Source: a virus. Taken from it: a DNA stretch of 23,879 bases. Position numbers and translations under genes: made by a program. The notes beneath the pieces were generated by a model. It did not search any database and was not told where the DNA came from. It saw only the letters and a list, made by a program, of their open reading frames with translations. Location of the stretch: IMG/VR virus record IMGVR_UViG_3300020187_000218, positions 1 through 23,879 of that record; one strand, 5' to 3'. This document shows positions 1,852-23,693 of this stretch, piece after piece; within the stretch, counting starts at the first letter, position 1; every line of letters begins with the position of its first letter.

Positions 1852-3324
1852 ATGGCGCTTGTTGCTCTTGAATTGCCTGCTGGCATCTACAATCACGGAA
1901 CAGAACTAGATTCAACGGGTCGTTGGATTGATGGCAACTTTATACGTTGGCAGAACGGTTCTGTGCGCCCGATTGGTGGGTGGACAACACGTAAGGCAGG
2001 GGCAACAGCGGCAGCGCCACGCGGCATGGTTTCTTGGGTTGATCATTCCGAGGTAACACACATTGCTGTTGGCACGTACAACAAGCTGTACGCGCTAAAC
2101 CAAGGCTCTGCGGTACAAGATATTACGCCTTCCGGTCTCACTTCTGGGTCAGAGGATGCAAACGCTAACTACGGGTTCGGCGGTCAGACCTATGGTAATG
2201 ACGCCTATGGCTATCCGCGTGATGCGGCTGTACCTGATCCAGTAACAACCTGGTCTTTAGATAGCTTTGGACAGTATTTAATTGCGTGTTCATCGGATGA
2301 CGGCAAGGTCTACGAGTGGCAGCTAAGTACATCAACTGCTGCGGCGTTGTTGTCAAATGCCCCAGTAAATAACAGCGCTATTATGGTAACCGATGAGCGC
2401 TTTGTCTTTTGTCTAGGCGCAGGCGGTAATCCGCAAAAGGTTGCTTGGTCTGATCGTGAAAACAATAACCAGTGGACGCCATCAACAACAAACCAAGCCG
2501 GTGATATCGAATTACAGACAACTGGCGAAATCATGTGCGGCGTTCGCGTTAAAGGGTCTGCATTATTATTAACAACCCTTGATGCACACACTGCAACCTA
2601 TGCTGGCCCTCCGTTTGTCTACAGTTTTGAGCGTGTTGGCAGTTCGTGTGGCATCGTATCTCGTCAGGCAGCCATCGCCGTTGACCAGGGCGCGTTCTGG
2701 ATGGGAACAGGTGGCTTTTATCAGTACAACGGTAACGCCGTACAAGAGATGCAGTGCGATGTGCTAGATCATGTCTTTACAAGCCTTAACACTGCGCAAA
2801 GATCAAAGGTATGTGCAATCCACAATAGTCAGTTTGGTGAAATTTGGTGGTTCTACCCATCAGGTGACTCAAACGAAAACAACCGTTACGTTGTCTATGA
2901 TTATAAGGAAGGCCACTGGAACATCGGTACGTTATCCCGTACGACAGGCGTTGATTTAGGCGCGTTTAGATCACCTCTGTGGTTTGATGCCTCTGGTAAC
3001 CTTTATAACCATGAGTTTGGTTACACCCACGACTCTGCTCCGTATTTAGAGTCTGGCCCTATCACAATGGGCGCTGGAGACAATGTTATGCGTGTCAATG
3101 AGATTATTCCAGATGAGGGAACGCAGGGCGAGGTTAGCTTAACCTTTAAGACGCGATTTTATCCAAATGGTGATGAGACAAGCCACGGGCCGTTTACACT
3201 TGGCAACCCAACCGGCGCAAGATTTCAGGGGCGTCAGGTCAGGATGCTCATTAACGGCTCAGAGCTTAATAATTGGCGTGCTGGCAAGATGCGTCTCAAT
3301 GTCATCGAGGGCGGTAGGCGTTGA
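1852..3324 (+). CDS. Large beta-rich tail/adaptor protein (P22 gp10-like or tail-hub family)
   Basis: 490 residues, ATG 1852 with AAGGA upstream. The N-terminus (LPAGIYNHGTELDSTGRWIDGNFIRW, then GSVRPIGGW) is a recognisable signature of large beta-rich proteins in podoviruses and marine phages, where a GRW.D..xxR(F/W) and P.GGW block opens a beta-propeller-like domain. Repeated short beta motifs (HIAVGTYNKLYAL, YLIACSSDDGKVYEW, FVFCLGAGGNPQKVAWSD) fit blades of such a fold. Homologues are usually called tail protein, tail hub or DNA-stabilisation protein. I infer a tail accessory or adaptor role, consistent with its place between fibre and fibre-repeat genes. The exact position in the virion cannot be told from sequence. 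Confidence 0.75.
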   Translation: MALVALELPAGIYNHGTELDSTGRWIDGNFIRWQNGSVRPIGGWTTRKAGATAAAPRGMVSWVDHSEVTHIAVGTYNKLYALNQGSAVQDITPSGLTSGSEDANANYGFGGQTYGNDAYGYPRDAAVPDPVTTWSLDSFGQYLIACSSDDGKVYEWQLSTSTAAALLSNAPVNNSAIMVTDERFVFCLGAGGNPQKVAWSDRENNNQWTPSTTNQAGDIELQTTGEIMCGVRVKGSALLLTTLDAHTATYAGPPFVYSFERVGSSCGIVSRQAAIAVDQGAFWMGTGGFYQYNGNAVQEMQCDVLDHVFTSLNTAQRSKVCAIHNSQFGEIWWFYPSGDSNENNRYVVYDYKEGHWNIGTLSRTTGVDLGAFRSPLWFDASGNLYNHEFGYTHDSAPYLESGPITMGAGDNVMRVNEIIPDEGTQGEVSLTFKTRFYPNGDETSHGPFTLGNPTGARFQGRQVRMLINGSELNNWRAGKMRLNVIEGGRR

Positions 3325-3956
3325 GTGCGCAGCTACCCCAACCAATTGGCGATGATTGGAAGATATGGGGTAAACGTCTTGTTGATGGCCTCTTAGTGGC
3401 CCAATCACAGCTAAAATATTACCTCTCTGGGGATTCTGCGGCGCTAGAGGGCATTATGCTGTGGGATCGCTCTGGTTACCCCGTAATTTCTAAAGATAAC
3501 GCGTATCGACAAGTCTTAATGCAGGGCGGTTGCGGTCACTTTGTAGCAACTGCAACTCAAACCCCTTCACAGGCAAATACGGCCTATGCTGTAACGTTTA
3601 ACAGCGCAACATCAGCCGACGGATTAGCGATTAACGGGTCGGACGCAACAAAGATCGACGTAACAGAATCCGGTGTTTTAAACATTGATGTGACAGCGCA
3701 GGCAACGTCTTCATCAAGCTATACAGGGTATCTTTGGATCAACGTCAACGGAACCGATGGCTTTGCAGTAAAACAGGCCGTTAATGGTGATGGCGTAATA
3801 GCCCATACAGCCGTTGTAAGCGTAACCGCTGGTCAGTATATAAAAGTAATGTACGCGGCCTCTAACACGGGTTTAACGCTGCCCTACACAGCGGCATCAA
3901 GTCCTATACCAGCAATACCTGCGGTGCAGGTGTCAATGAGTCGATGTAAGCAGTAA
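3321..3956 (+). CDS. Phage tail/neck-associated protein with C-terminal beta-sandwich-like domain
   Basis: 211 residues starting at TTG 3321, overlapping the preceding stop by 4 nt (TTGA). No ATG is available near the frame's start, so the TTG start is favoured. The first ~70 residues include WDRSGYPVISKDNAYRQVLMQGG, a stretch I associate with short phage proteins encoded next to tail-adaptor genes. Residues ~80-205 look like a beta-rich jelly-roll or C1q-like domain (SYTGYLWINVNGTDGFAVKQ, then VSVTAGQYIKVMYAASNTG), with Ser/Thr-rich linkers. Such domains act in oligomerisation or surface binding. A decoration or receptor-binding role is inference. Confidence 0.66.
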   Translation: MSAQLPQPIGDDWKIWGKRLVDGLLVAQSQLKYYLSGDSAALEGIMLWDRSGYPVISKDNAYRQVLMQGGCGHFVATATQTPSQANTAYAVTFNSATSADGLAINGSDATKIDVTESGVLNIDVTAQATSSSSYTGYLWINVNGTDGFAVKQAVNGDGVIAHTAVVSVTAGQYIKVMYAASNTGLTLPYTAASSPIPAIPAVQVSMSRCKQ

Positions 3957-4321
3957 TGAATCTACACGAAGAGCTTTTACGGTGCAGACCTTGGATAGAG
4001 AGTGCGCTGGAGCATTCTGGTGGCACGCATTTATTCGCAGATATTGTGCAGGGTATTGTCAGTGGGCGTATGCAGTTCTGGCCTGCAGAAGAGGGCTGTG
4101 CTGTGACTGAAATTATCATCTTTCCGCAGAAAAAGATTTTTCATGTTTTTTTAGCTGGGGGTGAAAAGGGGCAGATCGTTGATATGAATGATTCAGCCGT
4201 TGAATTTGCTAAAGCAGCAGGTTGTTCGGGAATGACCATTGCTGGGCGTAAAGGTTGGTCAAGGGTTCTTAAAGACAAAGGGTGGACAGAGGCGTTCACC
4301 ACACTATCAAGGGAAATTTAA
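3956..4321 (+). CDS. Conserved phage protein with possible GNAT-like fold
   Basis: 121 residues, ATG 3956 overlapping the previous stop by one base (TAATG). The pattern THLFADIVQGIVSGRMQFWP, then TEIIIFPQKKIFHVFLAGG, then AVEFAKAAGCSGMTIAGRKGW, then VLKDKGW resembles a short phage family whose beta-alpha order recalls GNAT acetyltransferases, with GRKGWSRVLKDKGW in the position of the C-terminal substrate-side strand. A clear acetyl-CoA P-loop (Q/RxxGxG/A) is not visible, so catalysis is doubtful. In other phages this family sits between tail-adaptor and fibre-repeat genes, as here, which argues for a morphogenesis role. Confidence 0.65.
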   Translation: MNLHEELLRCRPWIESALEHSGGTHLFADIVQGIVSGRMQFWPAEEGCAVTEIIIFPQKKIFHVFLAGGEKGQIVDMNDSAVEFAKAAGCSGMTIAGRKGWSRVLKDKGWTEAFTTLSREI

Positions 4322-4322
4322 T

Positions 4323-6281
4323 ATGTCAGGTGGAAAAGGCGGTAGCCAAACATCACAAGTAGAAATTCCACAATGGATACAGCAGCCATCAATAAGAAAC
4401 ATGGCGCGCGCAGAGGCCTTGCAAAAGGTTGGCTATATGCCGTACATGGGGCCAGATGTTGCAGGTTTAACATCACCGCAACAACAGGCGATGCAAGCAA
4501 ATATTGATGCAGCCTCTGCCTTTGGGTTAGTTGATCCTGGAATGAGTGCAACAGACGGTATGCCGCAAACATCGCAGTTTGGCGGTATCTCTGGTTACTC
4601 ATCCTACCCTATGTATCAGGAGGCAGTAGATAATTATGAGGCTACAAGCCCTGGTCAAGCGCGTCAATACAATAACCTATTTGTCAATCCTCAAAGTGGT
4701 CTTGGTGGCACTACTGGCACGGGCATGATGGGTGGTGGCATTAACAGTGGCGGTCAAAACAACTCAGGTGCTGGCAGTCACACAGGCGATCCAGGCGATG
4801 TTGGTCAATTTACCGCGTTTGACCCTACACAATATTCAATTTCTGATGCAAATCCTTACGGTGTGAGTTTTACAGCGCAAGCACCTGATATGACAGGTTA
4901 CATCACTGCTGACCAGTTAGATCAGCGTCTGATGGCAATGCAACCTACTGCACCGCAAGATATGTCTGGTTATACAACAACTGAACAATTAAATAACGCG
5001 TTAAGTGGGCTACCTACCTATCAGCCACAAGATTTATCTGGCTATGCTCGCACAACTGACTTGTATGATGACAGTCAATTGCGTCAGGATATTAACTCTA
5101 GATTTAGCAATGTTAATGCTTTTGATCCGTCTAACCTACAAGCACAAATTACATCTAATCAGCAGGGTCTTGCGAACTTACCTGCTGCACAAGCACCTGA
5201 CTTATCAGGCTACGCAACAACCAATGATTTGACAAGTGCGATCTCTGGCATACCAAGCTACCAAGCTCCTGATTTATCAAATTATGCAACGACAGAGCAG
5301 CTAAACAATAGATTTGAAGCGTTTGATCCTATGTCATCGATGCCTGATCTAAGCAATTATGCGCAAATGTCTGATTTATATGATGACAGTCAATTGCGAG
5401 GTGACATAAATAGTCGTTTTGAAACATTTAATCCTGACGTAACGATGCCCGATCTTTCTAACTATGCAACAACTGAAAGCGTCAATAACCGTTTTAGTAA
5501 TTTGTCACAGTATGATGATAGCGCTTTAAGAGAAGACATCAACAATCGGTTTAGTAACCTGCCCACATATCAAGCGCCTGATCTTAGCGGATATGCGACG
5601 AGTGAGCAGTTAAATACAGCAATTGCTGGCGTTCCTCAATTTGACCCAAGCAGCATTGATCTTTCTGGTTATGCAACATCGCAAGATTTAAACTCTGCAA
5701 TTAGTGGTTTGCCGACTTACCAGGCTCCCGATCTTAGCAACTATGCGCAAATGTCTGATCTGTATAATGACACTCAGTTACGGCAGGACATGAATACCCG
5801 ATTTAGTAACTTGCCCACTTACCAAGCGCCCGACCTAAGTAATTATGCGACTAATGATGCGTTATCTACTGCACTGCAGGGCATAAACCAATACGATGAC
5901 ACACAGTTACGACAAGACATTAACAATCGGTTCAGTAATTTACCGACCTATCAAGCACCTGACTTAAGCGGTTATGCAACGACTCAAAGCGTTAATAATC
6001 AGTTTAACAATTTGTCGCAATTTGACCCCAGCGGATTACAGAACCAAATTAATACAAATCAACAAGCGATCAGTAACCTTCCGTCATACCAAGCACCCGA
6101 TTTAGGAAACTATGCAACAAAAGATCAGCTTATAGGTCTTCTGTCAGATATTGGCACATCCTCAACGGGCGTTAACCCCTCGTTATATTCTGACCCAAAT
6201 CTTGGGCAAAACAATGCAACGGTAACCCCTGTAAAGGCAACGACAAAAAAGAAAGTTAGCACAAAAAAAGGAGCTAGATAA
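4323..6281 (+). CDS. Long repeat-rich virion fibre protein with 13 'PDLSGYAT' units
   Basis: 652 residues from ATG 4323. An in-frame extension upstream exists but would overlap the preceding gene by 83 nt and is not needed. The N-terminus (SGGKGGSQTSQVEIPQWIQQPSI, followed by an ALQ..G(Y)MPYMGPDVAGLTSPQQQAM segment) is a head-side anchor pattern seen in marine podophage proteins. A Gly/Asn/Ser-rich linker (~residues 120-165) leads into a long repeat array at residues ~188-603. The tail is Lys-rich (TKKKVSTKKGAR). The array suggests an elongated fibre or needle in the neck or tail. It overlaps the next gene by one base, and both share Gly-rich linkers and repeats, so they may assemble together. 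Confidence 0.75.
   Translation: MSGGKGGSQTSQVEIPQWIQQPSIRNMARAEALQKVGYMPYMGPDVAGLTSPQQQAMQANIDAASAFGLVDPGMSATDGMPQTSQFGGISGYSSYPMYQEAVDNYEATSPGQARQYNNLFVNPQSGLGGTTGTGMMGGGINSGGQNNSGAGSHTGDPGDVGQFTAFDPTQYSISDANPYGVSFTAQAPDMTGYITADQLDQRLMAMQPTAPQDMSGYTTTEQLNNALSGLPTYQPQDLSGYARTTDLYDDSQLRQDINSRFSNVNAFDPSNLQAQITSNQQGLANLPAAQAPDLSGYATTNDLTSAISGIPSYQAPDLSNYATTEQLNNRFEAFDPMSSMPDLSNYAQMSDLYDDSQLRGDINSRFETFNPDVTMPDLSNYATTESVNNRFSNLSQYDDSALREDINNRFSNLPTYQAPDLSGYATSEQLNTAIAGVPQFDPSSIDLSGYATSQDLNSAISGLPTYQAPDLSNYAQMSDLYNDTQLRQDMNTRFSNLPTYQAPDLSNYATNDALSTALQGINQYDDTQLRQDINNRFSNLPTYQAPDLSGYATTQSVNNQFNNLSQFDPSGLQNQINTNQQAISNLPSYQAPDLGNYATKDQLIGLLSDIGTSSTGVNPSLYSDPNLGQNNATVTPVKATTKKKVSTKKGAR
4884..6131 (+). 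repeat. Degenerate protein-coding repeats, 13 units of [P/Q/I]D(L/M)(S/T/G)xYxTxxxL
   Basis: Thirteen copies of the core PDLSGYAT/PDLSNYAQ followed by a short helix-like segment ending in L/V. They alternate with five copies of a (L)YDDSQLRQDINSRF-type segment and with linkers reading SNLPTYQA. Repeat lengths vary (about 22-50 residues), so the array expanded in blocks and then diverged. Codon usage differs between copies, which argues against very recent duplication. Confidence 0.85.
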
Positions 6282-8260
6282 TGGCTAATGGTGGCGCTAC
6301 AGGCGTAATGAACCAAAGAGTGCAAGGTCAAAATAATGGTTTGCAAGTAATGAATAAAGGCAGCACTGCACCAAGACAACTCTCACCGATGAAACAGCTA
6401 ACAGGAAACGATAAGCAAATTGGTAGTAGTCTTTTCTCTGATCCGCATTTAGGACAAGTAGGGCAAGACGTACCACCAATGCCAGGCGGCGGTATCCCTA
6501 ATAATGTGCCTTTGCCTCCTTACAGCGGCAATGGAAACCCTCAACCAAACACAGCCCCAACCAGTGGCGCAACGACGCAAGGGCAACGAGCGCCTAGTAT
6601 CTTTAGTTCAAGCGCACAAGGTATTAACGATGCAATGGCTGGTGCGCGTAATGAGATGAATTATTTGCCAATGGGAATACAATCTCAAGGCTATAATGCA
6701 TCGCAAGCAGGCGCAAAGGGCGTTAACGGCGCAAGAACATTTGGCCGTGGTTATAGCGCTGCAGGTAGTGTAGGGCAGGGGTATACAGCATCAGGAACAT
6801 CTGGTGAAGGCTATCAAGCCGCTGGCGCTTCTGGTCGTGGATTTGATGCAGCAGGCGTTGACTCGCAAGGATTTAAAGGAGCAGGCGTAGGCTCGCAAGG
6901 TTACAATCCACAGAACGCAAGTAGCTACGGTGTTAGCGGAAGAATGTTAGGTGGAGGGCCGAACGTCAGCGCAAGAGACGTTAATGCAGATCGCATTGTT
7001 GACGCGGATATCGGGCGTTACATGAACCCTTACAATGACGAGGTGGTTAATAGAACCCTTGGTGATTTAGACGAGGCAAGACGGTTGCAGATGGGTCAAG
7101 CTGGGGCCAACGCTACCGCAAGCGGCGCATTTGGCGGTTCACGGCACGCACTAAGAGAGTCAGAGACAAACAGCAGCTTCTTTGATCAAGCAGCACGTAC
7201 AGCCGCAGGGTTACGTCAGCAGGGCTTCAATCAGGCGCAGGGCATGGCGCAGCAAGATATTGCTAACAAGATGCAGTCTGATTTAGCGAACCAGGGCGCC
7301 TCACTGCAGGCCGATACAACAACTGCTAACATTGCACAGCAACGTAATCTTGCAGATCAGTCAACGGATTTGCGGTCACAAGAGTTCAGCGCAGGAGCAA
7401 AGAATCAGGCAGAGTTTGCAAATCAGGCGGCACAAAATCAGGCAGGACAATTTGCAGCAGCAGCGGCTAATCAGGCAGCACAGCAGACTTCTGCACAGGA
7501 TCAACAGGCTCGTCAGTTTAGCTCGGCAGCGGCTAACCAAGCGGCACAACAGCGGTCATCTCAGTTACAGCAGGCACGACAGTTTGGCGCACAAGCAGGT
7601 AATACTTCTGATCTTGCTAATCAGGCCTCATTAAACCAAGCACGACAGTTTGGTGCTGGGGCGCGTAATACAGCAGGTTTAGCTAATCAGGCAGCATTAA
7701 ATGCGGCAGGTCAGTTTGGTGCGCAGGCGTTAAATACTTCATCGTTAGCAAACCAAGCAGCAAGGAATCAAGCAGGTCAATTTGGAGCGCAAGCCTTTAA
7801 CACTGCAAACCTTGCAAATCAGGCATCAACAAACCAAGCAAACCAGTTTAGTGCAAATGCCGGAAATACTGCTCGACTTGCCAATCAGGCGGCCTCTAAC
7901 CGTGCTAATGAGTTTAATATCGGGCAGAATCAAGCGGCCCAAATGGCTAATCAAGCGGCTGGATTGGCTGGATCACAACAGCGCCTATCATCCGGTAATC
8001 AGTTAGGTAATTTAGCTAATTTAGGCTTTGGAATGGGTCAAACCCTTAGCGGTAACTTAGCACAGGACGGCGCAATGAAACAGGGTCTTAATCAGCTACT
8101 CATTGATGCGGTTAAGAACCAGTTTAACCAGCGTTCACAAGCGCCTTATCAGTCCATTGGATTGCTCTCTCAGGCTCTTGGTGCATCACCTGTTCCGCAG
8201 ACTACGACAACGACTAAACAGCCTGGTCTGTTTGATTATTTAACCCTAGCAGCGAGTTAA
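6281..8260 (+). CDS. Internal virion/ejection-type protein with Gly-rich and 22-residue helical repeats
   Basis: 659 residues, ATG 6281 in the stop of the previous gene and behind a strong AAAAAAAGGAG site. Order: disordered Gly/Asn/Pro-rich N-terminus, a Gly-aromatic decapeptide array (residues ~138-207), and a conserved-looking core (MNPYNDEVVNRTLGDLDEARRLQMGQAGANATASGAFGGSRHALRE region) that I recognise from large hypothetical proteins of marine podoviruses. Next come eight 22-residue Ala/Gln/Asn-rich repeats (368-543) and a short C-terminal region. Long Ala/Gln-rich helical proteins in this gene position are usually injected or structural. I infer an ejection or inner-core protein. Confidence 0.72.
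   Translation: MANGGATGVMNQRVQGQNNGLQVMNKGSTAPRQLSPMKQLTGNDKQIGSSLFSDPHLGQVGQDVPPMPGGGIPNNVPLPPYSGNGNPQPNTAPTSGATTQGQRAPSIFSSSAQGINDAMAGARNEMNYLPMGIQSQGYNASQAGAKGVNGARTFGRGYSAAGSVGQGYTASGTSGEGYQAAGASGRGFDAAGVDSQGFKGAGVGSQGYNPQNASSYGVSGRMLGGGPNVSARDVNADRIVDADIGRYMNPYNDEVVNRTLGDLDEARRLQMGQAGANATASGAFGGSRHALRESETNSSFFDQAARTAAGLRQQGFNQAQGMAQQDIANKMQSDLANQGASLQADTTTANIAQQRNLADQSTDLRSQEFSAGAKNQAEFANQAAQNQAGQFAAAAANQAAQQTSAQDQQARQFSSAAANQAAQQRSSQLQQARQFGAQAGNTSDLANQASLNQARQFGAGARNTAGLANQAALNAAGQFGAQALNTSSLANQAARNQAGQFGAQAFNTANLANQASTNQANQFSANAGNTARLANQAASNRANEFNIGQNQAAQMANQAAGLAGSQQRLSSGNQLGNLANLGFGMGQTLSGNLAQDGAMKQGLNQLLIDAVKNQFNQRSQAPYQSIGLLSQALGASPVPQTTTTTKQPGLFDYLTLAAS
6692..6901 (+). repeat. 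Gly-aromatic decapeptide repeats
   Basis: After a 20-residue first unit come five exact-length decapeptides, each (Y/F)xxxGxxxxG: YSAAGSVGQG, YTASGTSGEG, YQAAGASGRG, FDAAGVDSQG, FKGAGVGSQG. The 30-bp phase is kept without indels. The Gly-aromatic spacing resembles flexible or self-associating low-complexity segments, but the function is unknown. Confidence 0.85.
7382..7909 (+). repeat. Eight perfect-length 22-residue (66-bp) tandem repeats
   Basis: Residues 368-543 divide exactly into eight 22-residue units with no indel, each beginning (Q/E)F and reading roughly QFGAxAxNTxxLANQAxxNQAx. A partial, degenerate ninth unit follows (EFNIGQNQAAQMANQAAG). 22 residues equals two hendecads, a periodicity expected for right-handed or straight helical coiled coils. 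Sequence identity between units is moderate, with the frame kept and third positions diverged. Confidence 0.9.
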
Positions 8261-11811: not shown

Positions 11812-13899
11812 ATGGAACTTAAAAAGCTAACAGAAGACGACATCAAGTCAATTGCAGCGGATGCGGTGGACAACGCAGAAGATTTTGTAAACTCAGAGCT
11901 GGTAGATGATCGACTTAAAGCGCAGCGATACTATGACGGTAAGGTTGATATTGGCGAGGAAGAGGGCCGAAGTCGGGTTGTGTCAACCAAGATACGCGAC
12001 AAGATACGGGCCATAAAGCCAAGTTTGATGCGTGTTTTTCTGTCAACTGATAAGCCGGTTGAATTTGCTCCTACAGGGCGCGAGGACGCGCAGTTTGCTG
12101 AACAGGCCACTAAGTACGTTAACTACAAGTTTAATACGTTAGGCGGCTACAGTGTGCTGTCTGATGTCTTTGCTGATTCACTCCTAAAGAAGTGCGGTGT
12201 TGTTAAGTGCTATTGGAATATTGAGAAAGAAAGCGAGACGTTTGATCACCAAGACCTTCCTGATGAGGAGTTTAGCTTAATTGTTAACGATCCGCGTGTT
12301 GAGGTCATTAAGCACGAAGAGATCATCGAGATGGATGTTGATGACATGGGCGTTGAGTACCAGCGCACAATGCATAACGTCAAAGTGTCTGTCACCGAAG
12401 AGTACGGTGATCTATGTATTGAGAGCCTACCACCGGAAGAGTTCTTTATATCCTCAGAGGCCACTAATTTAGACGATGCCTATGCTGTTGTTCATAAGCG
12501 CGAGATGCGAGTAGGTGACCTGGTTGCAATGGGTTATGACTTTGATGTCGTGTCTGAATTAACTGGTAATGACACTGATAACTTTTCAGATGAAGAGCGA
12601 TTTGAGCGTCAGAACTTTAGTTTAGATGATGATGAGCAGCCTTTAGACCCCACAATGCGAAAGGTCGTTGTGTCTGAGGTCTACATGAAGATTGACGTTG
12701 ACGGCACTGGCGTACCTGTCATGCACAAGATACTGCTTGGTGGCGGTTCTGATGAGTTGCTTGATTATGAGCCGTGGGGTGACCTACCGTTTGCCGTGTT
12801 TCAGCATGATCCGGAACCGCATACGTGGGTCGGTAACTCTCTTGCAGATATTCTCTTTTCGGAACAAGACGCAGCAACAGCAATGCTCCGTGGCGTCCTC
12901 GATAACGTGGCACTAACCAATAACCCTCGCACCGAGATTGTTGAGGGCATGGTCAATGTAGATGACTTCCTCAATAACGAGATTGGCGGTGTTGTCAGAA
13001 CAAAAGCCGGAGGCTCAGTTACGCCTTTGACCGTTCCATTTGTCGCAGGTCAGACACTTTCTGCTGTCGAGTATTTTGATGCTCAAATTGATCAAAAAAC
13101 AGGCGTATCTGCTGCTTCATCCGGTCTTGACCCTAATGCACTACAGAACACCACTGCAACGGCTGTTAATGCCACTGTGCAGGGCGCGGCGAGTCAAATC
13201 GAGGTAATGGCTAGGAACCTAGCTGAAGGCGGTGTAACGCAATTATTTAAGCTTATGCTGAAGCTAACAATTGAGAACTGCGACAAAGCCGAAATGATGG
13301 CAGTCGGTGGTAATGACTACATGCCCGTTGACCCACGGTCTTGGAATAAAGAAATGGATGTCACGGTCAATGTTGGCTTAGGAACTGGCAGAGAGGGTGA
13401 GCGCCTAGCAGCCCTACAACAAGCTTTAGACATGCAGGTTCAAATTTTCACTAATTACGGTGTCGGTAACGGCTTAGTTGGCATGACTGAAATTAGAAAC
13501 ACCCTTGCAGATATGTTAGCAATGGGCGGTCTGCGCAATGTAAACCGTTACTTTAGACCAATGGACGCTGAAACAGAGATGATGCTACAGCAGCAAGCAC
13601 AAGCGCAGCAGGGTCAGGAGCCGATGGATCAGGCAGCAGCGTACTTGCAAGCCGAGCAAATGAAGGCGCAGTCTAAAGCACAGACTGATATGGCAAAACT
13701 ACAAATTGATGCACAAAAGGCGCTTGCACAGGATGACAGAGAGCGCGACCAGATGGATCAGGATTTGCTTGTTAAGGCTGCCGAGATTTATGGCAAGTAT
13801 CAGTCCAATGTAGACGTAGCTGGCGTTAAACAAGCGCAGGCGATGCCTAGATACCCAGCACAATCACCTGTCCAGGCAGTTACTGGAGGTAGATTCTGA
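11812..13899 (+). CDS. Portal protein (head-to-tail connector)
   Basis: 695 residues, ATG 11812; length close to P22-type portals (~725). The N-terminal region (RYYDGKVDIGEEEGRSRVVSTKIRDKIRAIKPSLMRVF) and the later block YEPWGDLPFAVFQHDPEPHTWVGNSLADILFSEQDAATAMLRGVLDN followed by NNPRTEIVEGMVNVDDFLNNEIGGVVR match the portal pattern of P22-like and marine podophages, including the long stem/wing helix. A Gln/Ala/Met-rich helical C-terminus (~580-660) fits the barrel or crown helix that extends into the capsid. The portal forms a dodecameric ring at one vertex, nucleates capsid assembly, binds terminase and passes DNA. Its place just before a scaffold and a capsid gene supports the call. Confidence 0.88.
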   Translation: MELKKLTEDDIKSIAADAVDNAEDFVNSELVDDRLKAQRYYDGKVDIGEEEGRSRVVSTKIRDKIRAIKPSLMRVFLSTDKPVEFAPTGREDAQFAEQATKYVNYKFNTLGGYSVLSDVFADSLLKKCGVVKCYWNIEKESETFDHQDLPDEEFSLIVNDPRVEVIKHEEIIEMDVDDMGVEYQRTMHNVKVSVTEEYGDLCIESLPPEEFFISSEATNLDDAYAVVHKREMRVGDLVAMGYDFDVVSELTGNDTDNFSDEERFERQNFSLDDDEQPLDPTMRKVVVSEVYMKIDVDGTGVPVMHKILLGGGSDELLDYEPWGDLPFAVFQHDPEPHTWVGNSLADILFSEQDAATAMLRGVLDNVALTNNPRTEIVEGMVNVDDFLNNEIGGVVRTKAGGSVTPLTVPFVAGQTLSAVEYFDAQIDQKTGVSAASSGLDPNALQNTTATAVNATVQGAASQIEVMARNLAEGGVTQLFKLMLKLTIENCDKAEMMAVGGNDYMPVDPRSWNKEMDVTVNVGLGTGREGERLAALQQALDMQVQIFTNYGVGNGLVGMTEIRNTLADMLAMGGLRNVNRYFRPMDAETEMMLQQQAQAQQGQEPMDQAAAYLQAEQMKAQSKAQTDMAKLQIDAQKALAQDDRERDQMDQDLLVKAAEIYGKYQSNVDVAGVKQAQAMPRYPAQSPVQAVTGGRF

Positions 13900-14147
13900 A
13901 CAATAAAGAAAAAGCTCAACGATACCTACGTTTAGAAAAAGATGACGTATTCCAAGAGCTTTTAAAGGATGTCAGAGATGACGCAGTAAGCGTCTTTCTG
14001 GAGCAGTCTCGTAACGACGAGGCGATACAACGGGCGCGTGATTTAATTGATGCGCTAAACACAATCGAGACCAAGATCAACTCCATTAAGATGGCCGATC
14101 TTGTCGATGACAAAAGGAAAACAGTACCGTGGAAACGACTGAAGTAA
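13896..14147 (+). CDS. Small head-assembly-region protein with apparent CTG start
   Basis: 83 residues (LNNKEKAQRYLRLEKDD..., ending DDKRKTVPWKRLK), almost entirely charged alpha helix. The frame has no ATG, GTG or TTG at its 5' end. The best start is CTG 13896, overlapping the portal TGA as CTGA and lying 6 nt after a perfect GGAGG at 13885-13889. The stop (14145-14147) overlaps the scaffold gene by 19 nt. Codon composition and direction fit the flanking genes. Small helical genes often sit between portal and scaffold in podophages. The function is unknown; assembly or connector help is a guess. Confidence 0.68.
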   Translation: MNNKEKAQRYLRLEKDDVFQELLKDVRDDAVSVFLEQSRNDEAIQRARDLIDALNTIETKINSIKMADLVDDKRKTVPWKRLK

Positions 14148-15100
14148 CAATGGACGGCAGCATTGAATCTGCCGCAGAGGCACTACTAACGCCAACTGAA
14201 ACTGAAGCTGCAGAGGTTGTAGAAGAGGAGACCCAAGAGGTTGAATCTGAAGAGACTGAAGTAGACGATGAGCCAGAGCTAGAGGCCTCGCAAGATGAAG
14301 ACGAACAAGACGACATTACCGAGGACGATGACGAAGAAATCGACGCCGTTCAGGAGGAGCAGTCCTACACTGTCAAGATTGATGGTCAGGAACGGGCTGT
14401 AACCCTCGACGAACTCAAGCAAGGATTTTCGGGTCAACAGTATGTCCAAAAAGGGATGCAAGAAAATGCTCAAATGCGCAAGCAAGCCGAGCAGGTTTAT
14501 AACGCCCTTTTAGAATCTCGTCAGCAGGTGACTGAACTTTATCAGCAACTGCAAAATGGTGGCGCTGCTCGTCAGCCTGTCAAACCAGACCTTGCAATGT
14601 TAGACACCGATCCAATCGGGTATGTTGAAGCAAATGCGCGGTATGAAAATGACATGTCGGCCTATCAGCAAGAGATGCAACAAATGCAACGGGTGCAACA
14701 GGAACAGGTACACGCACAGAATCTAGCACTTGAAGCTCATCGTTCACAAGAAATGTCTAAACTCCTAGATATCATGCCAGACCTTAAAGACCCTGATAAG
14801 GGTAAGGTTATGCGTGAGCAGATGTTGAATGTGGGTAATGAGTACGGTTATTCGCCGCAAGAAATTTCGGCAATAGTTGATCATCGTGCTATACGCGTTC
14901 TGGATGATGCCAGACGGTATCGCGAAATAGTTGCCAATAAATCCAAGGCCGTTGAAAAGGCATCTCAGAAAAAGAGAACGCAGCCATTAAAAGCAGGGTC
15001 GAAAAAAGTAAATTTATCGCAGAAAGAGCTTCGGACTAAACAGAAACGACTTAGAAACAGCGGCTCAATTGATGATGCTGTTGCATTGTTATTGGGCTAA
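14129..15100 (+). CDS. Scaffolding protein
   Basis: 323 residues from GTG 14129, with AAAGGA upstream; a downstream ATG (14150) is the alternative start. The first ~75 residues are extremely acidic and unstructured. Residues ~83-105 read QSYTVKIDGQERAVTLDELKQGF, a pattern typical of podophage scaffolds. The centre is coiled-coil, Gln/Met-rich (AQMRKQAEQVYNALLES and YENDMSAYQQEMQQMQRVQQEQ), and the C-terminal ~55 residues are strongly basic (KKRTQPLKAGSKK and KELRTKQKRLR), as expected for the capsid-binding end of a scaffold. It lies between portal and major capsid genes. It should occupy the procapsid interior and leave on maturation. Confidence 0.86.
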   Translation: METTEVTMDGSIESAAEALLTPTETEAAEVVEEETQEVESEETEVDDEPELEASQDEDEQDDITEDDDEEIDAVQEEQSYTVKIDGQERAVTLDELKQGFSGQQYVQKGMQENAQMRKQAEQVYNALLESRQQVTELYQQLQNGGAARQPVKPDLAMLDTDPIGYVEANARYENDMSAYQQEMQQMQRVQQEQVHAQNLALEAHRSQEMSKLLDIMPDLKDPDKGKVMREQMLNVGNEYGYSPQEISAIVDHRAIRVLDDARRYREIVANKSKAVEKASQKKRTQPLKAGSKKVNLSQKELRTKQKRLRNSGSIDDAVALLLG

Positions 15101-15125: not shown

Positions 15126-16085
15126 ATGGCACAGCCAAGTAATACTTTTGACAGCTATGATGGGGCTAATTCCATCCGTGAAGACCTCTCTGGTGTAATT
15201 GAAAACGTATCACCTGAAGAGACTCCTTTTTACTCAGCATGTAAGAAGACCAAAGCAAGCAACACTCTGCATGAGTGGCAGACTGATGCTTTACGCGCAG
15301 CCGGAGCTAATGCTCACATTGAAGGTGATGCAACAACTGCTGAAGCACGTACTGCAACAACTCGTCTTGGTAACTACAGCCAAATCTTTAAGAATTCTGT
15401 AGTAATACCTGACACAGACGCTGGTCTGAACAAGGCAGGAAAGGCATCAGAAATGGCTTATCAGGTCGTTAAGGTCGCTAAAGAGCAAAAATTAGACATA
15501 GAATTGGCCCTGTTTGCTAACAACGCTAAGGTAGCTGGTAATGCTACTACTGCGCGTGAGTTAGCCGGTGTTCCAACTTGGATGACTACTAACGACAGCT
15601 TTGCTTCTGGCAACTCTGGTGCTGCTCCTACTGGTGATGGTTCTGATGCTAGAACTGACGACGGTACTCCACGAGCGCTAACCCAAGCTATCTTTGATGA
15701 CGTTATGGAAGATATTTGGACTGCCGGTGGAAAGCCAGACACTGTTTACCTATCTCCTTTTCAGATGAACAAGGCTCTTGGCTTTACTGGTAACAACAAC
15801 CAGCGTTCAACTGTACAGGCTGGTGACAGCAAAGTTGTTAAGTCGTTAGACGTATATGTTACGCCTTGGGGTACGGTTGAATTCCAGCCAAGCCGCTTGA
15901 TCCGTGGCCGTGATGTATTCATTTGTCAGAACGACATGTGGAACGTAGCTGTATTGCGTCCAACTAAGAATGTAGAACTAGCTAAATCTGGCGATAACAC
16001 TACTCGCCAGGTAGTGACAGAATTGACTCTTGTTTCTAAGAACGAAGCAGCGTCAGGCATCATCTGTGATTTAACTACTTCTTAA
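15126..16085 (+). CDS. Major capsid protein, SU10-like family
   Basis: 319 residues, ATG 15126 with GAGGA 8 nt upstream. The sequence NTFDSYDGANSIREDLSGVIENVSPEETPFYSACKKTKASNTLHEWQTDAL is a textbook start of the SU10 major capsid family (PF17236 type). It is followed by a basic, low-charge middle and a C-terminal beta region ending VTELTLVSKNEAASGIICDL. The coat fold is HK97-like in that family. The product would be the most abundant virion protein. A hairpin terminator lies 16 nt after the stop, as often seen behind highly expressed capsid genes. The size and the neighbours (scaffold before, tiny basic protein after) fit. Confidence 0.9.
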   Translation: MAQPSNTFDSYDGANSIREDLSGVIENVSPEETPFYSACKKTKASNTLHEWQTDALRAAGANAHIEGDATTAEARTATTRLGNYSQIFKNSVVIPDTDAGLNKAGKASEMAYQVVKVAKEQKLDIELALFANNAKVAGNATTARELAGVPTWMTTNDSFASGNSGAAPTGDGSDARTDDGTPRALTQAIFDDVMEDIWTAGGKPDTVYLSPFQMNKALGFTGNNNQRSTVQAGDSKVVKSLDVYVTPWGTVEFQPSRLIRGRDVFICQNDMWNVAVLRPTKNVELAKSGDNTTRQVVTELTLVSKNEAASGIICDLTTS

Positions 16086-18488: not shown

Positions 18489-18509
18489 CACCGACCATTT
18501 CACCGACCA
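18489..18509 (+). repeat. Arm-type repeats, right pair (CACCGACCA x2)
   Basis: CACCGACCAT at 18489-18498 and TCACCGACCA at 18500-18509, 12 bp apart start to start. The second copy contains the integrase stop codon (TCA on this strand). The sequence is the same as the left pair, 200 bp away across the core. Confidence 0.7.
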
Positions 18510-19585
18510 CGCAGGGGTTTATGCTCGGTTCCTGGTAGCGGTTCAAACTGCGAAAAATCCTTGTCAGATGCGTACTCGTCTATCCACTCGGCGTAGGTTC
18601 TTAAAAACACGGCAGTAGAATGACCTAGCTGTTTTGCAGCTAAAGGTGGTAACACGCCTTTTGATAGTAACTCAGCGGCTCTTGTGTGCCTGCAGGTGTA
18701 AGGTATTCGGTAATGAATTTGTTTGCGTTTATGAGCCTTTTCCCAGGCTCGATTAAATCGCCTAGTATCCTTATAAAAACTACCATTTTCATTAACAAAG
18801 AAATAAGGGCTATCAATTCTCATAGGCATCATTTTCATGGCCTTTCTTACCCATAGCGGCACATAGACCTTTCTACGGTGTCCTGTCTTGGTAGACTCAA
18901 CTAGCTTTCCTCTTACTATCTGTTGGTGAACGTGCCAGTGTTCGCCATCAAAGTCATTTCTAAGCAGTCCTTTAATCTCCCCAGGGCGAAAGCCACACCC
19001 AAACAGAAGAGCAAAGTAAACATAAACATCACCCGTTAGGCATGACATTATCTTGTCACGCTCAACTGGCGTGTAGCGTTCTATTGGTTTAGTTTGTGCT
19101 TTTTTAGTTTTGATGATTGCTGCTGGATTTGGAAACACCTCGGCATAGTCAAGAACGCCACGCAATGGCCCAAGCGCGTTGTCACGAGTCTTGCTAGACG
19201 CATCTATACGACTAAGAGCCAGTTTAATCTCACGCGTGGTAATAGAGGCGCAGGGCTTCTTGCCAAACAGCGGTATCCAATATTTATTTAAAATGTTGAG
19301 GTAGCCTAGCTTTGTGGAGTGCTTGCCTTGATGAGTCTCAAGATATTCTTGAGCCATGCTGTAAAAAGATTGCAGGTGGGTAGGGTACTCTTCTTCCTCA
19401 AACGCCAGGCCAAGCCGAAACTTAACCTCTAGATCGTCTCGGTATTTTTTTACGCGCTTAACATCAGCCGCATTGTTGGAGTTGGCCGTAACGATCTCTT
19501 GGTAGACAAGCTTGCCTTGCTGCCAGATTCTGATTTGCAGCCCATTTCCGCGAGGTCTGATTCCTGTGGGGAACTTCTTATCCAT
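18500..19585 (-). CDS. int: Tyrosine-recombinase integrase
   Basis: 361 residues, ATG at 19585. Residues 7-30 (TGIRPRGNGLQIRIWQQGKL) form an arm-binding domain of the DUF3596/Min27 type. Residues ~68-155 form the core-binding SAM-like domain. The catalytic domain has Arg200 (CGFRPGEIKGL), Lys233 in the beta-hairpin (TKTGHRRKV), Tyr296-Thr-Cys-Arg299-His300 (the usual HxxR with His replaced by Tyr, as in several phage integrases), His322 (LGH) and nucleophile Tyr331 (RTYAEW). It should catalyse attP x attB exchange. The gene ends inside the right arm repeats of attP. Its start is overlapped by the upstream excisionase gene. Confidence 0.95.
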   Translation of the reverse strand: MDKKFPTGIRPRGNGLQIRIWQQGKLVYQEIVTANSNNAADVKRVKKYRDDLEVKFRLGLAFEEEEYPTHLQSFYSMAQEYLETHQGKHSTKLGYLNILNKYWIPLFGKKPCASITTREIKLALSRIDASSKTRDNALGPLRGVLDYAEVFPNPAAIIKTKKAQTKPIERYTPVERDKIMSCLTGDVYVYFALLFGCGFRPGEIKGLLRNDFDGEHWHVHQQIVRGKLVESTKTGHRRKVYVPLWVRKAMKMMPMRIDSPYFFVNENGSFYKDTRRFNRAWEKAHKRKQIHYRIPYTCRHTRAAELLSKGVLPPLAAKQLGHSTAVFLRTYAEWIDEYASDKDFSQFEPLPGTEHKPLRGR

Positions 19586-21923: not shown

Positions 21924-22061
21924 ATGGAGAGGGAGTTAGATATTGTACAGAATATTGATGAGGATGAATGCTTAGAAATTATTGAAGCGCTTACTTTGAG
22001 TCAAGATACGCCTCAAGCATTGAAACAACTTTTTGAAATTCGTCTTCAGACTGAAGATTAA
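21924..22061 (+). CDS. 45-residue acidic peptide overlapping the repressor 3' end on the opposite strand
   Basis: ATG 21924 lies after AAAAAAGGAG at a good distance; the stop is at 22059-22061. The product is a charged helix (MERELDIVQNIDEDECLEII, then LSQDTPQALKQLFEIRLQTED). Its last 71 nt are antisense to the end of the repressor gene (21991). The ribosome site and helix pattern argue for translation; the overlap and short length argue against. If real, its transcript would also be antisense to repressor mRNA. Confidence 0.42.
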   Translation: MERELDIVQNIDEDECLEIIEALTLSQDTPQALKQLFEIRLQTED

Positions 22062-22338
22062 TTTTATTTAACAGTTTAAAAAGATTTTTCTGATTGGGTG
22101 ACAGGTTTGATAGCTTTTTAGAATAGCCGTCATCTAGACCTAGCAAATATCCTGGCGTAACGCCTAATACCTCAGCAAAAGTGATCGCTACTTCGACAGG
22201 AAGCTGTCGCGTTCCTTGCTCGTAATTCGATATTCTCGCCGGTAAAATTGTACCGTTAGTTTTTTTGGACAGACCGGTTAATGACAGACCAGCATTTACT
22301 CTGGCTGCCTGCAGTCGTTTGCCTGATAGTTCTTTCAC
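21991..22338 (-). CDS. XRE-family repressor (CI-like, no peptidase domain)
   Basis: 115 residues from GTG 22338, with AGGAG 6 nt upstream. The HTH is clear: SGKRLQAARVNAGLSLTGLSKKTNGTILPARISNYEQGTRQLPVEVAITFAEVLGVTPGYLLGLDDG, with recognition helix around PARISNYEQGTR. The C-terminal ~45 residues (LSNLSPNQKNLFKLLNKINLQSEDEFQKVVSMLEAYL) are helical, probably for dimerisation. There is no S24 peptidase domain, so RecA-stimulated self-cleavage is not expected. It lies between divergent early operons and has its own promoter overlapped by inverted repeats, which suggests self-regulation. Confidence 0.85.
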   Translation of the reverse strand: MKELSGKRLQAARVNAGLSLTGLSKKTNGTILPARISNYEQGTRQLPVEVAITFAEVLGVTPGYLLGLDDGYSKKLSNLSPNQKNLFKLLNKINLQSEDEFQKVVSMLEAYLDSK

Positions 22339-22358
22339 ATATTTCTCCTAATGCACAG

Positions 22359-22387
22359 AATATACACGTATTGCGTATTTGACGCAA
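22359..22387 (-). promoter_or_regulatory. Putative repressor promoter overlapping operator
   Basis: On the - strand, TTGCGT (22382-22387) and TATATT (22359-22364) are 17 nt apart. The -10 matches sigma-70 at 5 of 6 positions. It lies 20 nt upstream of the repressor start. The region between the boxes is covered by two overlapping repeats, consistent with repressor or Cro control. Confidence 0.6.
22364..22387. promoter_or_regulatory. Operator candidates at the repressor promoter
   Basis: Two overlapping elements: ACACGTATTGCGT (22364-22376), one change from the ACAC-N5-GTGT word, and the perfect inverted repeat TTGCGTATTTGACGCAA (22371-22387, arms TTGCGT and ACGCAA). Either could bind the XRE or Cro dimer. 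Both lie inside the repressor promoter. Confidence 0.5.
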
Positions 22388-22464
22388 TGACTTGCGGTTA
22401 TTTAACTGTAAAAATGAACGAATATTCATGTTTGTTTAGCAAGTTAATTGTATTTGCATAGCAC

Positions 22465-22477
22465 ACACATAACGTGT
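22465..22477. promoter_or_regulatory. Operator/promoter candidate for the Cro-like gene
   Basis: ACACATAACGTGT has the ACAC-N5-GTGT architecture of the P_L operator and lies 11 nt before the Cro-like start. It covers a possible -10 (TAACGT, 22470-22475) with TTGTAT 16 nt upstream. The promoter match is weak, the operator similarity better. Confidence 0.45.
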
Positions 22478-22488
22478 ACGATGCGTAA

Positions 22489-22686
22489 ATGATTACTTTC
22501 CAGCAGTACCTCACAAAACATGGTGACAGCTTGTCATCAGAAAAACTGTCAATTAAACCTCGGCGCGCAGCGGCTTATCGGCGCGGTGAGAGAATGCCCA
22601 GGCCAAAAGACATTCCTCGTTTTATTACACTTGCTGAAGGTGAACTCTCTTTGCAGTCTTTTTTTGCTGTGGCTGATGATGAGTAA
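22489..22686 (+). CDS. cro: Cro-like HTH regulator
   Basis: 65 residues from ATG 22489. The sequence ITFQQYLTKHGDSLSSEKLSIKPRRAAAYRRGERMPRPKDIPRFITLAEGELSLQSF is a compact Cro/YdaS-type HTH in which LSIKPRRAAAYRRGERMP is the turn and recognition helix. Divergent orientation to the repressor and position ahead of the replication gene fit a Cro role, switching off early promoters and allowing lytic growth. No Shine-Dalgarno is visible; the message may be nearly leaderless. Its end overlaps the replication gene. Confidence 0.72.
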   Translation: MITFQQYLTKHGDSLSSEKLSIKPRRAAAYRRGERMPRPKDIPRFITLAEGELSLQSFFAVADDE

Positions 22687-23449
22687 GATGCTTGTCGCTC
22701 CTTTAGAGGCATTGACTGATCCAGAGCTTACGGATCAAGAAAGGCGCGTGCTGTTTGCATTGTTTTCTTATCGGGGAAAGGTCACTGATTTAGTTTGGCC
22801 GACCAGAGAGCAGATTGGCGAAAGGGCGAACATAAAAGATCTTGTCAGGGTTGGTAAGGTTACCTCATCGCTCTGTAAAAAAGGCTGGCTAGAGAAGTGG
22901 AAGAAGGGTTTTTCCGGCCACATGACATACAAAATTACCTTTCCAGAACGCCTTGAGACGGTAGAAGACACTGCAAGACAGCATGATACGTTACAAGACA
23001 CTCCATTAGAGGCAGATTATGCCTCCTCGTTAGAGGCAGATTATGCCTCCCATTCGAGGCAGATTATGCCCAGTGCATTAAACAAACCAAATAAACAAAC
23101 CAATAACCTGTACAAGAAGATCGATCTTACTCAGTTTGGTGATGATTGCTTAATCGATCAGTACAAAGAATTCATTGATCACCGAATCAATTTAAAGGCG
23201 CCGTTAACGCAGCACTCGTTTGAACGATTTTTATTTGCTGTAAGGGGCTGTGTAAGTCAGCTAGACCTTGATCCTAAATTTGTGATTACCGAGACTATTG
23301 ATGCTGGGTGGAAGTCCTGCAAGCCGGAATGGATGTCAAATCGATTAGCCAAAAACAGGCGCAGCGGAAACCAGGGTAAGCCTGATTCAATTAGATCGGC
23401 AAACATTGTTGACAAGCTCACCGATAGAGGCTGGGCCTATGAAGCATGA
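22676..23449 (+). CDS. Replication initiator (phage O-like) with winged-helix N-terminus
   Basis: 257 residues from ATG 22676; 22679 and 22688 are alternative starts and all overlap or abut the Cro-like stop. Residues ~14-95 form a winged helix (LTDQERRVLFALFSYRG, TREQIGERANI, VTSSLCKKGWLEKW, GHMTYKITFP), the DNA-binding domain of O/DnaD-type initiators. A low-complexity linker (~100-145) is encoded by the iteron region. The C-terminal part (YKEFIDHRINLKAPLTQHSFERFLFAVR, then ITETIDAGWKSCKPEWM) resembles the phage-O/DnaD helical domain that contacts helicase or its loader. It would bind the origin inside its own gene, as lambda O does. Confidence 0.78.
   Translation: MMSKMLVAPLEALTDPELTDQERRVLFALFSYRGKVTDLVWPTREQIGERANIKDLVRVGKVTSSLCKKGWLEKWKKGFSGHMTYKITFPERLETVEDTARQHDTLQDTPLEADYASSLEADYASHSRQIMPSALNKPNKQTNNLYKKIDLTQFGDDCLIDQYKEFIDHRINLKAPLTQHSFERFLFAVRGCVSQLDLDPKFVITETIDAGWKSCKPEWMSNRLAKNRRSGNQGKPDSIRSANIVDKLTDRGWAYEA
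23009..23070 (+). repeat. Three iterons inside the initiator gene (probable replication origin)
   Basis: GAGGCAGATTATGCCTCC occurs at 23009-23026 and 23033-23050, and its first 15 bases again at 23056-23070. Each full copy is an inverted repeat (GAGGCA-GATTA-TGCCTC). Start-to-start distances are 24 and 23 bp, so the third copy is in another codon frame and encodes different residues. Conservation is therefore at DNA level, as for lambda ori iterons in O. Confidence 0.85.
23079..23103 (+). repeat. Tandem AT-rich 12-mer next to iterons (possible DNA-unwinding element)
   Basis: TAAACAAACCAA is repeated exactly at 23079-23090 and 23092-23103, with a 13-bp period, eight bases after the last iteron. 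13 is not a multiple of 3, so the protein repeat is not maintained. AT-rich 13-mer spacing next to iterons is typical of unwinding regions of initiator-type origins. Confidence 0.6.
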
Positions 23450-23693
23450 AACCAAATACATAAAGTTTGTTGGTGATGATGATCGTTTTGCTCTTAACGT
23501 CAGCTACAGCTATGTGACGATCTCTGAGCGAACGAAGATACCAATTAACACGGTTAAAGATCGTTTAAGTCGAAAGATGGAGTTTAGTGAACAGGATTTA
23601 ATTGCGCGAAAAAAGCCAGCCAAAAAAGCGCCAATATTTGAAACCCCAGAAGAGGCTGTTTCTGCGAAATGGCTAAAGGTGGCTTTGCGATGA
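23439..23693 (+). CDS. Small HTH-like early protein
   Basis: 84 residues from ATG 23439, overlapping the replication gene by 11 nt. The core VTISERTKIPINTVKDRLSRKMEFSEQDLI looks like a helix-turn-helix (ISERTKIPINTVKDRLSRK), preceded by short beta segments (KYIKFVGDDDRFALN) and followed by a Lys/Pro-rich linker. Likely a DNA-binding regulator or accessory replication factor. No family recognised with certainty. Confidence 0.6.
   Translation: MKHETKYIKFVGDDDRFALNVSYSYVTISERTKIPINTVKDRLSRKMEFSEQDLIARKKPAKKAPIFETPEEAVSAKWLKVALR

Follow-up and report, generated by a model that had tools for sequence, protein, structure and literature searches.

In phage lambda, the replication origin lies inside the O gene and is made up of four iterons of 18 bp and an adjoining AT-rich stretch (PMC3349717, PMC7466680), and initiator genes bearing repeats in their own linker are known for lambda and the Stx phages (PMC7466680, PMC3349717). 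According to earlier work cited in PMC7466680, unwinding and in vitro replication in lambda can proceed with just the two iterons that adjoin the AT-rich tract. A related arrangement occurs in RepA_N plasmids such as pSK41, where central binding boxes in rep encode the linker between the N-terminal DNA-binding and the C-terminal domains (PMC5703833).

We analysed a stretch of viral DNA of 23,879 nucleotides (the window) and found that its segment 23009-23107 is very probably a lambda-type replication origin, situated inside the initiator gene of the same, probably temperate, phage; dimers of the initiator would bind the iterons, the AT-rich tract would melt and host DnaB would be brought in. 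The repeats, a constraint at the DNA level, a conserved layout, the domain plan of the protein and the lack of matches to known loader families were all computed here, and from them we infer the origin activity of 23009-23107. This kind of origin is already known, and the window phage offers a further example, which has a specificity word of its own and may lack a loader protein.

As in lambda and the Stx phages P27 and 933W, the initiator of the window family has its DNA-binding domain at the N terminus, and its gene carries inverted-repeat iterons in its middle part and an AT-rich tract by the last iteron; the family also shares with lambda the order CI/Cro/O and a downstream nin-like region, and its three to four iterons of 17 bp compare with four of 18 bp in lambda. 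However, the iteron word and the initiator sequence of lambda are not those of the window family, and O is followed by P in lambda but by a small HTH gene or a NinB-type gene here. The RepA_N elements likewise place binding boxes in the linker-coding part of rep, although they are plasmids, form a family of low-GC Gram-positive bacteria, have their copy number set by antisense RNA and showed no detectable sequence relation to the window initiator.

The O-like initiator and its surroundings

The gene harbouring the repeats had been called O-like in a preliminary description made from the sequence, and profile searches bear this out. Its product matches PHROG_678 ('replication initiation O-like') with E=2.9e-11 over residues 7-229 of 253, as well as PHROG_391 (E=7.6e-6), and that of its relative L092 matches PHROG_678 with E=2e-13. 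We place the protein among the PHROG_678 O-like initiators on the basis of this match over most of its length and of its winged helix-turn-helix, linker and C-terminal domain plan. Phage_rep_O (PF04492), the family of lambda O proper, gave no Pfam match above cut-off in the window protein and was seen below threshold in a single distant relative, L025. The start context of the gene is the same in 13 close homologues. The gene, its predicted domains and its upstream neighbours are as follows:

22679..23449 (about), + strand: O-like replication initiator gene, with an alternative ATG at 22676; the family alignment begins at 22688
22688..22951, + strand: winged helix-turn-helix domain, codons 1-88 (AlphaFold2 secondary structure and confidence)
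22952..23101, + strand: disordered linker, codons 89-138, encoded by the iterons and the AT-rich tract
23111..23368, + strand: helical C-terminal domain, codons 142-227 (about; AlphaFold2 model and motifs of the family alignment)
22489..22686, + strand: small gene in the cro position (assigned by position), directly upstream of and overlapping the O start
21991..22338, - strand: CI-position HTH repressor, divergent (HTH_3, E=5e-10; PHROG repressors)

The AlphaFold2 model, built from 20 family sequences, assigns pLDDT values below 50 to linker residues 89-127 and 129-138. Codons 108-129 correspond to the three iterons and codons 130-140 to the AT-rich tract, so that neither extends much beyond the disordered linker. 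The winged helix-turn-helix domain, with a predicted recognition helix at residues 52-64, is the presumed reader of the iterons. Its Foldseek matches are winged helix-turn-helix proteins, including the plasmid initiators 4pt7 and 5kbj, all of them weak (E>0.005), and HTH_36 is sub-threshold in the window initiator and clear in distant relatives. The C-terminal domain contains the invariant motifs F..R...K..L.Q and TI.AGW......W...R and had no fold match in the PDB, and searching solved structures with the initiator sequence gave nothing significant. PHROG_6451 ('primosomal protein') matches L092 weakly (E=3.8e-5), with neither a Pfam nor a PDB fold match for a DnaT-like C-terminal domain.

Gene content points to an early region like that of lambda, in a phage that has an integrase and whose portal and capsid are of the SU10 type. 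The O-like gene lies directly after the CI/Cro-like pair, whose cro-position member (22489..22686) has no family match, and in relatives the region continues with NinB-, NinG-, Q- and terminase-like genes. At 11812-13899, 15126-16085 and 18500-19585 of the window, SU10-type portal and major capsid proteins occur alongside an integrase in a genome that also has a CI-like repressor, which suggests a temperate-looking SU10-type phage group. Two long reading frames (4239-6281 and 6281-8260) encode strongly repetitive protein, with repeats like 'LSNYATTEQLNNRF' and 'NQAARNQAGQFGAQA', and their products are probably virion or tail proteins. Directly after O there is a small HTH gene (23448-23693), also present in L002, where it gives a weak repressor match, and missing in L004 and G011.

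Iterons and AT-rich tract

The repeats and the adjoining tract occupy the following positions:

23009..23025, no strand assigned: iteron 1, GAGGCAGATTATGCCTC, with 6-bp inverted arms
23033..23049, no strand assigned: iteron 2, GAGGCAGATTATGCCTC, identical to iteron 1
23056..23072, no strand assigned: iteron 3, GAGGCAGATTATGCCCA, in a shifted reading frame
23075..23107, + strand: AT-rich, A/C-biased tract GCATTAAACAAACCAAATAAACAAACCAATAAC, candidate DNA unwinding element

As the preliminary description had proposed, there are three copies, starting at 23009, 23033 and 23056 and thus spaced by 24 and then 23 bp from start to start, and the third lies in a different frame (0, 0 and 2 relative to the O-like gene). 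It had also built every copy on the inverted repeat GAGGCA-GATTA-TGCCTC; this 17-bp word is complete in copies 1 and 2, whereas the right arm of copy 3 is degenerate, ending in CA instead of TC (a CCCA terminus), which breaks the outer two arm pairs. Copies 1 and 2 share 21 identical bp, TTAGAGGCAGATTATGCCTCC, and 15 bases, GAGGCAGATTATGCC, are common to all three copies, the third included. With up to three mismatches allowed, none of 100 shuffles reached five matches to this 15-mer (0.6 expected), and for an exact 15-mer found three times in any 60 bp of the window, the crude expectation is about 6e-11. The iteron word was not found outside the three sites in the remainder of the window or the record. 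A candidate fourth site near the gene start, TTAGAGGCA (22698-22711), was dropped, since the LEA peptide of the relatives uses other codons there.

The functional unit exceeds the 23009-23070 interval originally delimited and reaches through the AT-rich tract to about 23107. By nearest-neighbour energy, the window tract is the least stable 40 bp of the gene (rank 1 of 719); the tract takes this lowest rank only in the window and in L019, and ranks 6th to 46th of about 700 in the others. In every close-family gene, a tract of the GCATTAAACAAACC type, with an AT content of 69-75%, begins 19-20 bp past the first base of the last iteron; the distance is 19 bp in L092. Several inverted-repeat iterons within the initiator gene and an AT-rich tract beside the last of them, the elements by which a lambda-type origin is recognised, are thus both present. 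Mapping of the origin by GC skew, suggested in the preliminary description, failed: there was no origin signal across the window fragment, where skew is uninformative because it follows the coding strand.

Conservation among relatives and constraint on the DNA word

Scans of viral contigs yielded 12 close relatives beyond the window, and one further relative, L087/L092 in record G011, was reached through the AT-rich tract pattern; L005, L010, L011, L014-L016 and L021 duplicate, or nearly duplicate, other relatives. Absence of the repeats from relatives had been named beforehand as an outcome that would speak against an origin. Instead, all 13 close relatives carry three to four iterons at the same linker position, and in each of them one or more copies lie out of frame. 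Close to the AT-rich tract, successive iterons follow each other in steps of 23-24 bp, whereas in members with four iterons the copy farthest from the tract lies at a variable distance (27, 36, 45 or 51 bp), so that the constant spacing of the window family concerns the same tract-proximal copies as the sufficient pair of lambda. Throughout the close family, CCCA or CCCG forms the end of the last iteron. At the terminal site of L012/L013 (L012 2856-2873), a different perfect palindrome, GGGTC-AATTA-GACCC, stands where others have GAGG...CCCA.

While the layout persists, the word changes from record to record: it is GAGGCAGATTATGCCTC in the window, L001 and L002, GAGGTCGAATCCACCTC in L003, GAGGTCAAATTAGCCTC in L012 and GGGGCAGAATCCGCCCC in L092. 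Iterons are more similar within a genome than between genomes (0.83 vs 0.76, p=0.001). A broader iteron pattern retrieved 53 stretches from IMG/VR, and only members of the window's O-like family had two or more sites, for which reason single-site stretches were taken as chance matches. We found no relative of the initiator in cellular genomes, no close relative in phage and plasmid collections and, at the sensitivity used, none among 50,697 annotated phage records.

Within the iterons it is the DNA word, and not the peptide, that is under constraint, as the preliminary description had surmised from the frame of the third copy. When codons were permuted within each gene, leaving the protein unchanged, none of 1000 permutations of the window gene had as many out-of-frame 9-mer repeats as observed (18, vs 1.0 expected), and all 14 close-family genes exceeded this null (p<=0.004). 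Codon choice is frozen in the sites: among eight representatives, Glu is encoded by GAG in 17/17 cases inside sites vs 45/105 in the rest of the gene (p=4e-6), and Arg by AGG in 13/13 vs 22/126 (p=2e-9), Fisher p-values that overstate independence because the relatives share kinship. The LEA peptide at the gene start serves as a natural control, as its codons vary freely among relatives. Linker peptides also differ across relatives, with GAGG-N9-CCTC mostly kept. Covariation between the arms (position 5/13) was not significant (p=0.10), because the outer arm bases hardly vary, and so fails as proof of palindromic recognition; binding of a dimer to the palindrome is therefore argued from symmetry and from the analogy with lambda.

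More distant O-like genes share mainly the C-terminal motif, and most of them have linker repeats with unrelated words. By the codon-permutation test these repeats are significant in L023, L024, L025 and L030, with words such as ACCC-N6-GGGT in L023, ACCCC-GGGGT types in L024, the CCAGCACC type in L025 and CCCCAAAGTGCAGA in L030; in L026 and L029 the repeats are all in frame, and in L027 and L028 they are not significant. Among named phages, Pseudomonas vB_Pae_U7, Vibrio pA2SJ1 and Erwinia Pavtok have significant out-of-frame linker repeats, and Aggregatibacter S1249 has linker repeats that are significant in frame only. These four likewise combine an HTH with a repeat-bearing linker, although their repeat words are unrelated to those of the window family. 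In all, it is common for O-like phage genes to carry repeats of their own in the part that encodes the linker.

Probable origin activity, alternative functions and helicase recruitment

In the mechanism that we propose, the N-terminal winged-helix domain would bind each inverted-repeat iteron as a dimer, and with all three iterons, spaced by about two helical turns, occupied in this way, the DNA would be wrapped by the protein. Wrapping would strain the adjoining AT-rich tract until it opens, and the C-terminal domain would then deliver the host DnaB helicase to the opened strand. Every step after recognition of the binding sites is one that we infer. The layout, the AT-rich tract at a fixed distance, the disordered linker and the changing word all favour the earlier suggestion of an origin like that of lambda inside O, with a specificity of its own.

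Other explanations of the repeats have to be weighed against this one. That they are a LEADYAS peptide motif selected as protein, with the likeness of the DNA a mere by-product, would agree with the in-frame position of copies 1 and 2, which both encode LEADYAS, and with the in-frame-only repeats of some distant relatives (L026, L029 and S1249). Yet copy 3, being in frame 2, encodes SRQIMPS, an out-of-frame copy also occurs in every close relative, and the repeats disappear upon codon permutations that preserve the protein. Since, moreover, codons are frozen in the sites and free for the same LEA peptide elsewhere, linker peptides vary while GAGG-N9-CCTC mostly persists, and the peptide encoded by the sites is predicted to be disordered, we hold selection on the peptide to be extremely improbable. 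A role as hairpins in single-stranded DNA or mRNA, either as a priming signal or in translational control, seems very improbable. As single-stranded DNA, GAGGCAGATTATGCCTC does fold at -5.2 kcal/mol, better than all shuffles; however, the homologous L003 word, GAGGTCGAATCCACCTC, folds weakly (-1.8 kcal/mol), and C5/A13 in many copies of the relatives breaks the fifth hairpin pair while both half-sites can still be recognised, both of which make action as a hairpin less likely. Nor does the non-significant arm covariation favour hairpins, and Rfam gave no family match.

Symmetric sites together with a winged helix-turn-helix protein are also typical of operators, and the CI- and Cro-position genes are just upstream of the O-like gene, so that the sites might instead serve transcription, as operators of the initiator or of the CI/Cro-position proteins. 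We consider this very improbable as a replacement for an origin, because the sites are located mid-gene, about 320 bp downstream of the gene start and outside the CI/Cro intergenic region (22339-22488), because the iteron word is unique to them in the record, and because copy number, regular spacing and the adjoining AT-rich tract suit an origin. Autoregulation by the initiator could coexist with origin function. A promoter scan of the region gave fewer promoter-like sites than shuffles did, and we therefore make no claim of transcriptional activation.

In the O/P replication module of the lambda type, a P-type helicase loader is encoded next to O. Lambda P (PF06992) was absent from 12 family records, including the almost complete G011, and the DnaC/IstB (PF01695) and DnaB/DnaB_C (PF03796) profiles matched nothing in the record of the window or in the family records tested. 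Comparison of its first and last reading frames with the window indicates that G011 (34,964 bp) begins just past the capsid gene and ends within it, and it is probably an almost complete genome because both of its ends fall at this gene; its reading frames, ten of which were scanned against PHROGs, included no recognisable helicase, primase or loader. This differs from S1249, with a P-like loader directly after O, and from vB_Pae_U7, where a primase/helicase occupies that place, neither of which was detected in the window family. As no phage helicase or recognised loader was detected, O, with host factors, probably recruits the host helicase and handles this step alone, although the window family may possess divergent or small loaders that escaped detection.

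A more specific and rather doubtful proposal is that of a lambda-type origin without any helicase or loader encoded by the phage, in which the O-like C-terminal domain, with its invariant TI.AGW......W...R, would recruit host DnaB directly or through host DnaC or DciA, one protein of 250 residues doing the work of both O and P, and in which a swap in the predicted recognition helix would track iteron base 13, hinting at a specificity code. In window-type proteins and in L092, residue 54 is Arg and residue 58 is Val or Cys, and every iteron copy has G at position 13; the other lineages combine Arg58 with Ala or Ser as residue 54, and their iterons mostly have A at position 13, with G in two copies of L012. 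The Arg54/Arg58 swap thus appears to track base 13 (G vs mostly A), which we regard as a lead only. In a family tree made without the linker and the recognition helix, the deep branches were not resolved, and one and two origins of the Arg54 state were not distinguished.

For an uncultured phage group that lacks annotated initiator relatives at the sensitivity used, the locus supplies a candidate origin together with the protein that presumably reads it. Its family is a natural series in which the layout is fixed and the binding word changes with the reader, useful for studying how initiators choose their origin, and, if it is true that no P protein is needed, it would be a minimal lambda-type replication system.

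The almost complete relative G011 also contains extra gene regions (L092 coordinates 12531-14160 and 2862-5773). Within its nin-like region, one gene reads like that of a DNA methyltransferase and another is PAPS reductase-like. By eye, a further pair of adjacent genes, of 378 and 592 aa, resembles FecR-type and CHASE2-type signalling proteins.
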